64,000 nucleotides of DNA, taken from NCBI GenBank assembly GCA_029266525.1, contig JAQSWQ010000008.1:1-64000 (forward strand), written 5' to 3'. Below are positions 40,251 to 46,937 of this stretch, piece by piece. Position 1 is the first letter of the stretch. Every line of letters starts with the position of its first letter. The position numbers and the translations under genes are program-made. Under the pieces are notes generated by a model. The model made no database searches, had not been told where the DNA came from, and worked only from the letters and a program-made list of their open reading frames with translations. This DNA is from Microvirga sp. (GTDB lineage Bacteria; Pseudomonadota; Alphaproteobacteria; Rhizobiales; Beijerinckiaceae).

Positions 40251-40880
40251 TCAGCCTGGCTTCGCCGACAGCCCGCCGCTTTCCTCGATGAAGCGCGCCA
40301 CGGCCTCAACACCCTCACCGGAGCGCATGTTGGTGAACACGAAAGGACGCGTGCGGCGCATTGCCTTGGCGTCGCCCGCCATCACCTCGAGGCTTGCCCC
40401 GACATGCGGCGCGAGGTCGATCTTGTTGATGACGAGGAGATCGGAGCGGGTGATGCCGGGCCCGCCTTTGCGGGGGATCTTCTCCCCGCCGGACACGTCG
40501 ATGACGTAGATCGTGAGGTCGGCGAGCTCGGGCGAGAAGGTCGCTGCAAGATTGTCGCCGCCCGACTCGATCAGGACGAGATCGAGTCTCGGGAAGCGCC
40601 TGGTCATCTCGTGGACGGCGGCGAGGTTGATCGAGCAGTCTTCGCGGATCGCGGTATGCGGACAGCCGCCGGTCTCGACCCCCATGATGCGCTCCTCCGG
40701 AAGCGCGCCGGCGACGGTCAGGATGCGCGCATCCTCCTTCGTGTAGATGTCGTTCGTGATGGCGCAGAGCTCGTAGCGGCCGCGGAAGCGCTTGCACAGC
40801 GCCTCCATCAGCGCCGTCTTGCCGGAGCCGACCGGGCCGCCGATGCCGACGCGAAGCGGTCCGTGCGGGGAAGCGCTCAC
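40251..40880 (-). CDS. ureG: Urease accessory protein UreG
   Basis: [62 protein letters not shown]. Confidence 0.97.
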
Positions 40881-41554
40881 GAGCGAAAAAGCCTCGTGTG
40901 CTGGCTCTCGTGACGCAGCGCGGCGAGATCGGAGCGGAAGGCGCAACCGCCGAGATCGTCCAAGGTGGATGCTTGGGCAAAGGCGGCGAGTCGACGAGCG
41001 GGCGAGACAAGCGCCGCAATCACCCGCTGACCGTCGCTCTGGCCGATGATCCCAAGCCGCACCGCCGCGGAAACGAGGTTCGAAACGAAGCCGAGGGCGA
41101 ATGCCTCCAGCGCCTCAAGGAGCGCAATGTCGTGCCCGGCGGCAGCGACGCCCACCGCGACCGGATAGGCGACGGGCTCGCGCCAGCTCCGCTTGAGAAG
41201 GTCGATCGCCTCACACGGCCAGGAACCCGCAACTGCGACAACGAACGCATCGCCCTGGGTGCTGGTCTCGAGACGGCGCTCGGCGGAGCTCGCGAGCGCG
41301 AGCGCGAGCTCTGCCGCCGCGGCGAGCGCCGGGGCGTCACGCTGCACGGCGGCGCGGTGCGCGACAGCGAAGATCACGGCATCATTGCGGGCGGAGCCGA
41401 AGCGCAGGAGATCGGCGAGCCAGCGCTCGAGAGTGGCGGCATCGGTGACATCGCCCGCTTCTTGCGCCCATTCGAGCCCGTGCGAATAGGCGAAGGCTCC
41501 GACCGGAAAGGCGGGCGACAACCAGACCAGCAGCGGAAGATGAGCGGACGCCAT
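40877..41554 (-). CDS. ureF: Urease accessory protein UreF
   Basis: [43 protein letters not shown]. Confidence 0.93.
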
Positions 41555-42168
41555 CAGTGCTCGTGGCCCTGATGCGCCTGCCCGCAACCAGGCCCGTGCT
41601 CGCGATGATTGCGCTCGGCATCGACGTGGTGGTCGTGACTGTGGCCGTGATCGTGGTGATGATCGTGGCCGTGGTCATGGTGGAGGTCGTGCGCGTGGCC
41701 ATGAGGGTGGCCATGATCGTGGCCGCAATCGTGCTCGTAGGCGCCGCGCTCGGGCTGGAACGGGCGGGTCACCGGCGTCGCCGTGCCGCCCTGGCCGCGC
41801 ACCATCTCGGCGAGCACGTGGTCATCCTCGATGTAGATGGCGTCGGCCGCGATCTCGGCCGGCGTGTGCCGGTTGCCGATATGCCAGGCGATGCGCATAA
41901 GCCGCAGCGGGTTCTCGGCGCGGATCTCGAGCAGCGACTGCGGCGCCGCCTCGACCAGCACGAGCCGCCCGTCCTCGAGCTTGACGGCGTCGCCATCGTT
42001 CAGCACGGCGGCCTTGTCGAGATCGAGCAGGAAGTCGAGCCCGCCCTCGCCTTTCAGCGCCACGCGGCGGCGGTGGCGGCCCTCATGGTCGAGCGTCACC
42101 GTATCGGCGACACGGTCGGATTTGACTGCGGCTTTGCGGACGATGGCGGTGGCGCGGAGCATGTGCAT
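41554..42168 (-). CDS. ureE: Urease accessory protein UreE with long His-rich tail
   Basis: UreE fold plus C-terminal HDCGHDHGHPHGHAHDLHHDHGHDHHHDHGHSHDHH. Confidence 0.93.
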   Translation of the reverse strand: MHMLRATAIVRKAAVKSDRVADTVTLDHEGRHRRRVALKGEGGLDFLLDLDKAAVLNDGDAVKLEDGRLVLVEAAPQSLLEIRAENPLRLMRIAWHIGNRHTPAEIAADAIYIEDDHVLAEMVRGQGGTATPVTRPFQPERGAYEHDCGHDHGHPHGHAHDLHHDHGHDHHHDHGHSHDHHVDAERNHREHGPGCGQAHQGHEH

Positions 42169-42170
42169 CC

Positions 42171-43886
42171 TCAGAACAAAAAGTACCGCTGCGCCATCGG
42201 TAGCACTTTCGCGGGTTCACAGACCAGAAGCTCGCCGTCGGCGGTGACGCGGTAGGTCTCCGGATCGACCTCGATCTCCGGCGTGGCATCGTTATGGACC
42301 ATCGCCTTCTTCGAGATGCCGGCGCGCACGTTCTCGACGGCCACGAGCTCCTTCTCGGCGCCGAGCCGGGACTTGAGGCCACGGGCGAGCGCCGCCTGCG
42401 AAACGAAAGTCAAGGAGGTCGCGAAGAGGGCCTTGCCGAAGGCGCCGAACATCGGCCGGTAATGGACCGGCTGGGGCGTCGGGATCGAGGCGTTGGGATC
42501 GCCCATCGGCGCCGCCGCGATGGCGCCGCCCTTGATCACGAGGTCCGGCTTCACGCCGAAGAAGGCGGGCGACCACAACACGAGATCGGCGAGCTTGCCC
42601 TCCTCGACCGAGCCGATGTGCTTCGAGACGCCATGCGCGATGGCGGGGTTTATCGTGTACTTCGCGAGATAGCGCTTGGCGCGGAAATTGTCGTTCCCAT
42701 TTCCCTCGTCTTCCGACAGCGGCCCGCGCTGGACCTTCATCTTGTGCGCCGTCTGCCAGGTGCGGGTGATGACCTCGCCGATGCGGCCCATGGCCTGGCT
42801 GTCCGAGGACATCATCGAGAGCGCGCCGAGGTCGTGCAGGATATCTTCCGCCGCGATCGTTTCCTTCCGGATACGGCTTTCGGCAAAGGCGAGGTCCTCC
42901 GGGATCGACGGGCTCAGGTGATGGCACACCATGAGCATGTCGAGATGCTCGTCGATGGTGTTGACCGTGAAGGGCCGCGTCGGATTGGTCGAGGAGGGCA
43001 GCACGTTCGGCAGGCCTGCCACCTTGATGATGTCCGGCGCGTGGCCGCCGCCGGCACCTTCCGTGTGGAAGGCGTGGATGGTGCGGCCCTTGAAGGCCCT
43101 GATCGTATCCTCGACGAAGCCCGACTCGTTCAGCGTGTCGGTGTGGATCATGACCTGCACGTCGTGATCGTCGGCGACACTCAGGCAGCAATCGATCGCG
43201 GCCGGCGTCGTGCCCCAATCCTCGTGGAGCTTGAGCGCGCAGGCGCCCGCCTCGACCATCTCGACGAGCCCACCCGGCAGGGAGGCGTTGCCTTTGCCGG
43301 CAAGCCCGAGATTGACCGGGAAGGCGTCGAAGGCGCGCAGCATCATCTCGATGTGCCAGGGGCCCGCCGTGCAGGTCGTGGCCTTGGTGCCTTCCGCAGG
43401 TCCAGTGCCGCCGCCGAGCATGGTGGTGACGCCCGACATCAGCGCGTCGTCGATCTGCTGCGGGCAGATGAAATGGATGTGCGAATCGAAGCCGCCGGCG
43501 GTGAGAATCTTGCCCTCGCCCGCGATCGCCTCCGTGCCCGGCCCTATGACGATGTCGACGTTCGGCTGGATATCCGGGTTGCCCGCTTTGCCGATCTTGT
43601 GGATGCGCCCGTTCTTCAGGCCCACATCGGCCTTCACGATCCCCCAATGGTCGACGATCAGCGCATTGGTGATGACCGTGTCGACGGCGCCCTCGGCGTT
43701 CGTCACCTGCGACTGCCCCATGCCGTCGCGGATGACCTTGCCGCCGCCGAACTTCACCTCCTCGCCATAGGTCGTGAGGTCGCGCTCGACCTCGATCACG
43801 AGATCGGTGTCGGCGAGCCGCACCTGGTCGCCGACGGTCGGCCCGAACATGTCGGCATAGGCGGAGCGGGGGAGATTGGTCGTCAT
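42171..43886 (-). CDS. ureC: Urease subunit alpha
   Basis: [78 protein letters not shown]. Confidence 0.98.
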
Positions 43887-44902
43887 GATATCTCACCTGT
43901 CCGCAGATTTGCTCTTGGAAAAAGCAATGGAAATGCCTGCTTCAGCGACAGAATTCGGCAATCGCTATTTCCTCTAGCTCTCTTCCATAATGCGTCCCAG
44001 TTTTTTCCTACGACGGCGCGAAATCCGCTATCGATCGCAATCCTGCCCAAGCCGTCGATTGGTATTCGAAGACCCTTTTCCGTATACGCGATCCAGCATC
44101 GAGCGCCGTCCCTGAGCTTAAACGAGGGCACGTGTGGCCCGGTCCGGCTAACTGCTTCAATGCGACCGTTTAAGATGTCGACGATGACGGCCGATTCCGG
44201 TATATTCTCGAAATAGTCATAATACCATGACTTGTCGTCAATCGCCTCCGGAACATCACTGTTCTCGCCCTGTGCGATCGTTTCCTCACTCGTTTGCTCA
44301 TTGAATAGAGCAAAGTAAATGTTGTTTTCGCGTGTCAGCTCCGGCCGATCTCTAAGAACATCCGAAAGCGTCTTCGCATTTGTACCCATTGCGGCGGAGG
44401 CTTTTGCCTTTGCATTCCAAATTTCTTCAGCTCGCAACAAGTCAGCTTCTCCGATTGCAACGGCTTGCTTCCAAACTTTCTCGAACCAAAAACCGGCTTC
44501 GGCTCGAAGAGATTTTTGAGAGATTTGCACGTTTAACTCGATCCAACCCTCGTTGTTCTCGGACATTCCGTTGGTCGACGCGTTCGACGAGCCAAGTATT
44601 ATCTGGGCACTTCCGATATAAGCCTTTGCGTGAAGTTTGGACAACATACGTACTTTGAATTGCTTCAGAGCGATTAATTTCCGAATCTCCGCCGGAAACG
44701 AGGCGCCGCTCAGTAAATTACAAATTATTCTCCCTCCTCGCGCCTTACTTAGGCCAAGCTTCTTGACAGCTCCTTCTCCCCAGAACGCAACCGCGATATC
44801 TATCTTCGATCGAGTGACCGCACGCTTGACGATGGAAGCAGCTGCATTTCCGTCGAGCAGTCTGGACTTATTGTCTCGGCTGGTGGACGAAGCAATCATC
44901 AC
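43883..44902 (-). CDS. Phospholipase D-like (HKD) domain protein inserted between ureAB and ureC
   Basis: 339 aa; [34 protein letters not shown] (HxK...GSSN PLD-like motif); AT-richer; ATGA overlap with ureC; GTG start overlaps the ureAB stop. Confidence 0.85.
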
Positions 44903-45519
44903 ACCTTCCCCATCAGTTCGCCGCGGAAGCCATAGACCTCGCGCTTACCCGAGAATGCCACCAGCCGCACCTCCCGCGTCTGCCCCGGCTCGAATCGCAC
45001 GGCAGTCCCGGCGGGGATGTCCAGGCGCATGCCTCGGGCCTTGGCGCGGTCGAAGGACAGCGCCGGGTTCGTCTCGAAGAAATGATAGTGCGAGCCGACC
45101 TGGATCGGGCGGTCGCCGCTGTTCGCGACTGTCAGCGTGATTGCCTCGCGGCCCTCGTTCAGCGTGAGCTCGCCCTCCTGCGGCATCACCGCGCCCGGCT
45201 GCAGCGCCCCCGTCGCGCCGCGGATCGGGTTATGCACGGTGACGAGCTTAGTGCCGTCGGGGAAGGTCGCCTCGACCTGCACGTCGTGGATCATCTCGGC
45301 GACCCCGTCCATGACCTGACCGAGGGCCAGCACCTGCGCGCCCGCCTCCATCAGGTCGGCGACCGAGCGGCCGTCGCGCGCGCCCTCAACGACGAAATCG
45401 GTGATCAGCGCCACCGCCTCGGGATGGTTGAGCTTGACGCCGCGTTCAAGCCGTCGGCGCGCCACCATGGCCGCCATCGCGATCAGCAGCTTGTCCTTCT
45501 CGCGCGGGGTGAGATTCAT
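44899..45519 (-). CDS. ureAB: Fused urease gamma/beta subunits (UreA-UreB)
   Basis: [57 protein letters not shown] (gamma) + [43 protein letters not shown] (beta) in one ORF. Confidence 0.96.
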
Positions 45520-45528
45520 GCGGTTGCC

Positions 45529-46362
45529 TCAGGTCTGCCAGGAGCGCGGCATTGGCGCGCCGCGAAAACGCTCGAGGAAGCGGACGAGATCGGCGCGGAG
45601 CGCCTGCGGGGCGGGCGACAGGAAGCGTGCAACGAGCATGCCGTTCCAGGCGCTAACGCCGCATTCCGAGGTCGCGTTCTCCAGGGCCTCGCGCGCGGGC
45701 TCGCGCCGGCTCTCCGCCTCGAGCGAGACGTGCAGCACCGTCGCCGTCGCTCGCGCGCCGCCGCCGAGCGCCCGGCGCGAGAGCGCATCCTCGATGTCGC
45801 CTTCGAGCTTCACATCCTCAGCGAAAACCACCCTGCCGTCGCGGCGGATGCGCCAGCGATCGCGAAAGAGGCCTTCCCGCAGCGTCTCGCCCCTGGCGGT
45901 ACGCCCGAACATCACGCTCTCGCACAGCGTCAGCGCCGCCCCCGTCGCGATCTCGCAGGCGAGCGTACGCCGGAAGCGCGCCCCATCGAACAGAATCTGC
46001 TCCTGGGGCAGCCACTCGAGCCGGCTTCCCGCGGCAAGCCGTAGATCTACGGTCACCTCGGTATCCGCGTCCTCCGAACGATAAACCTTCTCGGCGGCTT
46101 GCGTCGTCACGACCGCCTGCGCGCCGCCCGCGAGCTCGACCTCGATACTCATCCGGTCGCCCGCGGCCATGCCGCCGCCGGTGTTGAGGAGGACGGCTTC
46201 ACAGGACGCGCCGGCGTTGGGGAAGCGCACGCGGTAGCCGCCGCTCTCGGCGACCCGGACGGGCGCGGCACCGCGCGCAGTCGGCTCGATCACGAGCCGC
46301 ACGCCGCCGCGCGCGCGGATGAAGGCCGGCACCGCTTGCGGAAGGGGCGTCCTCATGAGCAT
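45529..46362 (-). CDS. ureD: Urease accessory protein UreD
   Basis: AVVTTQAAEKVYRSEDADTEVTVDLRLAAGSRLEWLPQEQILFDGARFRRTLACEIA. Confidence 0.93.
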   Translation of the reverse strand: MLMRTPLPQAVPAFIRARGGVRLVIEPTARGAAPVRVAESGGYRVRFPNAGASCEAVLLNTGGGMAAGDRMSIEVELAGGAQAVVTTQAAEKVYRSEDADTEVTVDLRLAAGSRLEWLPQEQILFDGARFRRTLACEIATGAALTLCESVMFGRTARGETLREGLFRDRWRIRRDGRVVFAEDVKLEGDIEDALSRRALGGGARATATVLHVSLEAESRREPAREALENATSECGVSAWNGMLVARFLSPAPQALRADLVRFLERFRGAPMPRSWQT

Positions 46363-46451
46363 GAGCGCACCATTGCCGGGCCGCGGACGACTCGCAAGCG
46401 CGCCATTGCAGACCCTGCTGCCCCATCGCGCAGCGACTGCCCGCAAATGCA

Positions 46452-46937
46452 TCAATATGCGATGCGATCGGGCTTGTTCAGCCAATCGCGGAAGACGGTC
46501 TCGGCCTCGTCGGAAGGCGCATGCTGCATCGGCAGGATGCGCTCGGCCGGTCGCTTCGGCATCTCGTCATAGATGAAGGCGTCGTCGAAGCCGATCGCCG
46601 CCGCCTGATCGCGCGTGTTGGCGTAAACGATGCGCGAGATGCGCGCCCAATAGGCCGAGGCGAGACACATCGGGCAGGGCTCGCAGCTCGCATAGAGCGC
46701 GGCCCCCTCAAGCGCGAAGGTGTCGACCGCGGCGCAGGCGCGGCGGATGGCCACGACCTCGGCATGGGCGGTCGGATCGTTCGTGGAGGTGACCTGGTTC
46801 CAGCCCTCGGCGAGAATCCTGCCGTGGCGCACGATCACGGCCCCGAACGGCCCGCCCTCGCCGGCCTGCATATGCTCGCGCGAGAGCGCGACGGCGCGGG
46901 CGAGGTAAGCGCGGTACTCTTGGGGGAGTGTCGTCAT
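46452..46937 (-). CDS. Nucleoside/guanine deaminase (CDA superfamily)
   Basis: GGPFGAVIVRHGRILAEGWNQVTSTNDPTAHAEVVAIRRAC, SCEPCPMCLASAYWARISRIVYANT. Confidence 0.9.
   Translation of the reverse strand: MTTLPQEYRAYLARAVALSREHMQAGEGGPFGAVIVRHGRILAEGWNQVTSTNDPTAHAEVVAIRRACAAVDTFALEGAALYASCEPCPMCLASAYWARISRIVYANTRDQAAAIGFDDAFIYDEMPKRPAERILPMQHAPSDEAETVFRDWLNKPDRIAY

Follow-up and report, generated by a model that had tools for sequence, protein, structure and literature searches.

A PLD-family nuclease gene, probably acquired and defence-related, between ureAB and ureC in a Microvirga urease operon

Why should a gene of the PLD nuclease family lie between the structural genes of a urease operon? 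The question is raised by a window of 64,000 nucleotides, the whole stretch of Microvirga sp. DNA analysed here, in which an intact open reading frame on the minus strand separates the fused ureAB gene from ureC (Table 1). An earlier note on this DNA had described the frame as a 339-aa ORF on the operon strand, and it is indeed present, overlapping its neighbours by a few bases on both sides. Two starts are available: GTG 44902, which gives the 339 aa, and the better placed ATG 44899, which gives 338 aa. The cluster order is ureD-AB-PLD-C-E-F-G, normal apart from the PLD gene; tblastn finds the order D-A-B-C-E-F-G to be kept among relatives.

Table 1. Features of the urease operon and of the PLD-family gene in the window.
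Feature	Position	Strand	Basis
PLD-family gene	43883..44902	-	ORF, Pfam, family alignment, AlphaFold, Foldseek
Fused ureA-ureB, upstream neighbour	44899..45519	-	NCBIfam 'bifunctional urease subunit gamma/beta', E 1.8e-95
ureC, downstream neighbour	42171..43886	-	Profile match, E 0
ureD	45529..46485, start approximate	-	ORF; tblastn gene order in relatives
ureE	41554-42168	-	ORF; tblastn gene order
ureF	40877-41587	-	ORF; tblastn gene order
ureG	40251-40946	-	ORF; tblastn gene order
GGGGAAGG, likely Shine-Dalgarno of the PLD gene	44904..44911	-	Within ureAB 3' end, four bases before ATG 44899; inferred from sequence
AGGTGAG, likely Shine-Dalgarno of ureC	43892..43898	-	Within the final codons of the PLD gene; the ureC ATG follows after five bases; inferred from sequence
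N-terminal single-HKD PLD nuclease domain, ~residues 12-165	44405..44866	-	AlphaFold and Foldseek; profile match 7clg_A, E 5e-7
HKD-type motif, residues 89-111	44567..44635	-	Invariant or nearly invariant columns in family alignments
C-terminal domain, ~residues 172-335, possibly PUA-like (EVE/YTH/ASCH/LON-type)	43895..44386	-	Separate AlphaFold model; Foldseek

The PLD gene is likely to be co-expressed with the urease genes, as judged from how the three genes are joined. The stop codon of ureAB and the start of the PLD gene overlap (GTGATG), with ATG 44899 sharing one base where GTG 44902 would share four, and the PLD stop codon overlaps the ureC ATG as ATGA (43883-43886). Probable ribosome-binding sites for the PLD gene and for ureC lie inside the respective upstream genes, and the operon strand has no promoter-like match around the PLD gene, such matches occurring on the opposite strand only. 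Terminator-like matches around the gene are no more frequent than in shuffles. This arrangement fits the co-transcription with urease proposed in the earlier note, which stands as a prediction from the sequence.

In composition the gene stands apart from the other genes of the window, with which it was compared. Its GC content is 50.0% (GC3 53%), against 65.6-72.0% (GC3 76-89%) for the ure genes and a mean of 67.5% (sd 2.3) for 39 long non-overlapping ORFs of the window. Horizontal acquisition of a gene foreign to the urease operon is the best reading of these values. A target-site duplication was not found around the gene; it is not framed by the short direct repeats nearby (21 nt at 86%, 10 nt exact), which are chance-like.

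Urease clusters of relatives bear on whether the gene has any part in urease itself, the unrecognised urease-linked function that the earlier note had offered as its second possibility. Ninety-six clusters were compared, 95 from Hyphomicrobiales relatives and that of the window, each gap being counted where both flanking genes were found. The PLD gene occupies the ureB-ureC gap in the window alone (1/96), so it is not a universal urease component. Conversely, ure genes are absent from all of the approximately 94 other loci of the PLD family that were examined. A contribution to urease assembly, nickel handling or regulation is suggested only by location, between structural genes with tight overlaps; absence from the 95 other clusters, the lack of any family member near urease, the foreign composition and a fold unrelated to that of urease chaperones make it very unlikely. 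The gene is most likely a passenger and not a part of urease.

The passenger sits in an interval that often holds extra DNA. Among these clusters, which are related by descent so that gap counts are not independent events, the ureB-ureC gap measures at least 250 bp in 48 of 96, genes being seen in part of such gaps and not in every one. With half of the gaps occupied, an insert at this place is ordinary, and the unusual part is the PLD occupant. Gaps of at least 250 bp are also found between ureC and ureE (41/88), ureA and ureB (20/96), ureD and ureA (2/93) and ureF and ureG (7/87); ureE-ureF gaps were left out, as they are inflated by the variable His-rich tail of UreE. The ureC-ureE interval (L045-L144) is thus a second variable one, reaching 2.6 kb. 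In the window, UreE has a long, His/Asp-rich C-terminal tail like that of nickel-storing UreE proteins. Three loci (L051, L053 and L056) have ureDAB and no ureC in the stretch covered, which points to a contig end (L051) or to rearranged clusters.

What fills the ureB-ureC gap varies between relatives: Pfam recognises LprI, GFA, MazE, PIN, HD, DUF559, T4-type RNA ligase, LysE and others. The RNA ligase gene lies between ureB and ureC at 6843-7964 of L081. Matches to PIN, MazE, GFA, HD and DUF559, with queries taken from the ureB-ureC interval, all fall in that interval, the other ure intervals giving no match. PIN-domain toxin genes occur in the gaps of eight clusters from several families (L047, L052, L074, L099, L114, L128, L132 and L140), seven of which also have a MazE-type antitoxin match. 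The sizes of these gaps, 737-806 bp, suggest a single arrangement that either recurs or is inherited. Extra ORFs are known from rhizobial urease clusters. A search of the open-access literature found no paper that describes the ureB-ureC gap as a cargo slot.

One of these PIN arrangements (L047, 7268-7938) belongs to the other sequenced species of the window's genus. Since the slot there holds a MazE-type antitoxin and a PIN toxin, and PIN recurs in seven other clusters, the PLD gene might be a selfish, addiction-type insert, a toxic nuclease kept with the urease operon in place of the toxin-antitoxin pair of the sister species. No antitoxin partner lies beside the PLD gene, however. A Barstar match within the protein (residues 287-309, E 0.0015) is weak, covers 23 residues, appears in one family member only and is taken as chance. 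Such an addiction role is very unlikely.

The nature of the protein is clearer. Its AlphaFold model (mean pLDDT 84; residues 11-100 above 90) confirms, at the level of predicted structure, a PLD fold of the single-HKD nuclease branch of the PLD superfamily. Foldseek with the whole model places SauUSI first (7CLG, E 7e-9), followed by NucT (5e-8), Nuc (5e-6) and the NgoAVII R-protein (5e-5), with TrmBL2 and Zucchini also among the matches, and a sequence profile search independently selects the same SauUSI chain. The PLD fold and the low GC content together support the earlier proposal of an acquired nuclease- or phosphodiesterase-like gene. The kinship with BfiI/NgoFVII-type enzymes suggested at the same time holds in part: the NgoAVII R-protein is matched, but over about the PLD part only (157 columns), and SauUSI and NucT are closer. 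A profile match to a PDB 'circular tendon repeat protein' was judged a repeat artefact.

Each chain has one copy of an HxK ... GSxN active-site motif. In an alignment of 35 family members, all from separate genomes or contigs, H90, K92, S104, N106, N110 and G111 are invariant and E121 is nearly so; the motif is therefore not a chance match. The PLD-superfamily-type motif named in the earlier note is accordingly present, though the canonical HxK(x)4D is not kept in full, its D varying across the family. Pfam PLDc_2 scores 22.4 bits against the protein, under its 27-bit cut-off. PLDc_2 is matched at E 0.001 or better by 24 of the 35 members. None of Pfam, NCBIfam and PADLOC gives the family a confident assignment.

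Relatives of the gene are rare (5/398 genomes of the order, 20/397 of the family) and distant, being 21-42% identical, with none above about 42% over a long stretch. A scan of genome contigs with the single protein found no close relative; the profile scan was built on a closer subset, alignment A1 being too diverse. Named relatives belong to Alpha-, Beta- and Gammaproteobacteria, with a few from Bacteroidota and others. Some lie on megaplasmids and in viral contigs, one (L146) in a Mu-like prophage that also carries SIR2; the annotated phage genomes gave no match to the protein.

The neighbours of these relatives point to defence, as the earlier note had thought possible. In 12 of 51 loci a strong PADLOC match to a restriction or other defence gene lies at most two ORFs from the PLD relative; about three quarters of the relatives lack a defence gene that could be recognised among their neighbours. 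The clearest cases are the order hsdR-PLD-hsdM-hsdS (L167) and an operon of type IIG RM, PLD and helicase in Asaia (L168) that recurs on a Thioclava plasmid (L042). In a viral contig (L147) the order is hsdM-hsdS-SLFN-PLD. Other neighbours are the SIR2 gene of the Mu-like prophage (L146), GmrSD-type (L176), C5-MTase (L158), PtuA-like (L172) and HsdR (L149) genes, and L038, L179 and L182 also have strong matches. As a control, 90 urease-flanking genes match 2 PADLOC families at 1e-15, one of them an ATPase model matched 14 times, and 90 PLD neighbours match 218. Counting families is a crude measure, as a single RM protein matches many of the models, and different genomes supplied the two gene sets. 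Several of the matched models (MkoA/MkoC, IetA, mad3) represent generic ATPase or helicase matches, and a DpdJ match (L159), probably a generic Lhr-type helicase, was left out of the count. The best explanation of these neighbourhoods is a defence-associated, unnamed, proteobacterial family.

Two of the loci deserve separate mention. The operon of L168 (4248-11182) and L042 consists of a type IIG restriction-methyltransferase, the PLD gene, a DEAD-type helicase and a further gene, is shared by distant Alphaproteobacteria, and is possibly an undescribed RM variant. On an Azospirillum plasmid (L038, 3796-8993), the gene directly upstream of a solitary PLD gene encodes an AAA protein of 1357 aa, which itself shows a weak PLD-like match at its C-terminus.

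The same neighbourhoods help to weigh two further explanations. The protein might be a phosphodiesterase whose substrate is RNA or something else, used in uptake or stress and not in defence, which would agree with the presence of NucT and Zucchini among the best fold matches. Recognisable neighbours of the relatives are largely restriction and defence genes, not competence or RNA genes, so this role is unlikely. The protein could, instead, derive from a larger restriction or defence system as its accessory nuclease and now be an orphan, its partner lost or supplied in trans, and alone be inactive or a passenger. The hsd and type IIG operons above favour such an origin, as do SauUSI, which has PLD and an SF2 ATPase fused in one chain, and NgoAVII/CglI, where PLD pairs with such an ATPase (PMC7913695). 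Against it, the majority of relatives stand as single genes or next to unrelated ones, so that many may act alone, and both the reading frame and the active site of the window gene are intact. We consider an orphan somewhat unlikely.

The C-terminal domain of the protein is likely to be the targeting part. Residues 172-338 are poorly conserved. Modelled separately by AlphaFold (pLDDT 83, pTM 0.77), the domain finds the EVE-HNH restriction enzyme VcaM4I at rank 1 in Foldseek, at a non-significant E of 0.06, and its top matches include YTH, ASCH, LON N-terminal and cereblon domains, which, with EVE, we take to form one PUA-like superfamily. By name, roughly two thirds of the 50 matches listed are PUA-like, none of them significant, and Pfam and profile searches of the domain give this assignment no sequence support. 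A PUA-like reader of modified bases, which the model weakly resembles, is the leading guess. A PUA-superfamily sensor joined to a nuclease is described as the plan of many modification-dependent restriction enzymes (PMC7897488), and EVE-PLDc fusions have been described (PMC7641849), which makes a compact modification-dependent nuclease plausible. Modified bases as the actual target of the protein are a tentative proposal.

Comparison with characterised systems shows where the protein resembles them and where it departs. SauUSI, a type IV enzyme that depends on ATP, is a dimer in which the PLD domains come together to form an active site with an HxK motif (PMC7913695). It is the best match of the N-terminal nuclease domain by profile and by fold, and it joins PLD to a reader of the SRA type, as the window protein possibly does to a PUA-like one; the C-terminal domain of the window protein is not demonstrably SRA, and the protein, at 338 aa against 953, lacks both the SF2 helicase/ATPase and the coupler domain. 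BfiI and the NgoAVII R-protein (PLD + B3) are of similar size, with PLD first and then a second domain of about 165 aa, but B3 structures are absent among the 50 Foldseek matches listed for the C-terminal domain. The small EVE-PLDc and PLD-wH modification-dependent endonucleases (PMC7641849, PMC11037411) combine a PLD nuclease with a reader, a plan that the window protein possibly follows, and genes for PLD-wH enzymes are reported to lie close to those for methyltransferases or restriction enzymes (same sources); in the window protein Pfam recognises neither an EVE nor a winged-helix domain, and the C-terminal fold is only suggestive. DrmC of DISARM and DpdK of Dpd are also PLD nucleases of defence systems and match weakly by HMM (E 3e-4 and 3e-5), DpdK at 22 bits against a cut-off of 100, whereas the window locus has no partner helicase or modification genes.

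Taken together, the PLD gene is best explained as an acquired gene of a defence nuclease family without a role in urease, to which we give a probability of about 0.68. On this view, horizontal transfer brought a gene for a single-HKD PLD endonuclease, its frame unbroken, into the ureB-ureC cargo slot. The gene would be transcribed with urease, its translation being coupled to ureB and ureC through the overlaps and the internal ribosome-binding sites. On the model of SauUSI, BfiI and NgoAVII, the PLD domains of two subunits are predicted to pair into an active site for metal-independent DNA cutting. The C-terminal domain, if PUA-like, would read modified bases and so confer type IV-like, modification-dependent restriction that requires no helicase of its own. 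A counter-point is the ATPase that the nearest characterised enzymes contain or depend on, as none adjoins the PLD gene; no SF2 helicase-like ATPase is found in the chain, which has two domains only, or in the urease operon.

In a broader joint reading, the Hyphomicrobiales ureB-ureC junction would be a slot where single defence or addiction genes (toxin-antitoxin pairs, DUF559 and PLD nucleases, RNA ligase) dock in general and gain stable expression linked to urea and nitrogen, and the PLD gene in it would encode a new restriction enzyme that is compact, ATP-independent and modification-dependent (PLD + PUA-like reader). As a whole this is doubtful. Searches for defence genes usually turn to islands and prophages, and those based on islands would miss genes within a core metabolic operon, such as the restriction-type nuclease in this urease operon or the toxin-antitoxin pairs at the same place in sister lineages. 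If the slot is general, it would be a simple place to seek small stand-alone defence genes, and one could ask there what makes a single junction of one operon open to cargo. The PLD family, which recurs inside RM operons, is itself a candidate source of a small modification-dependent endonuclease.
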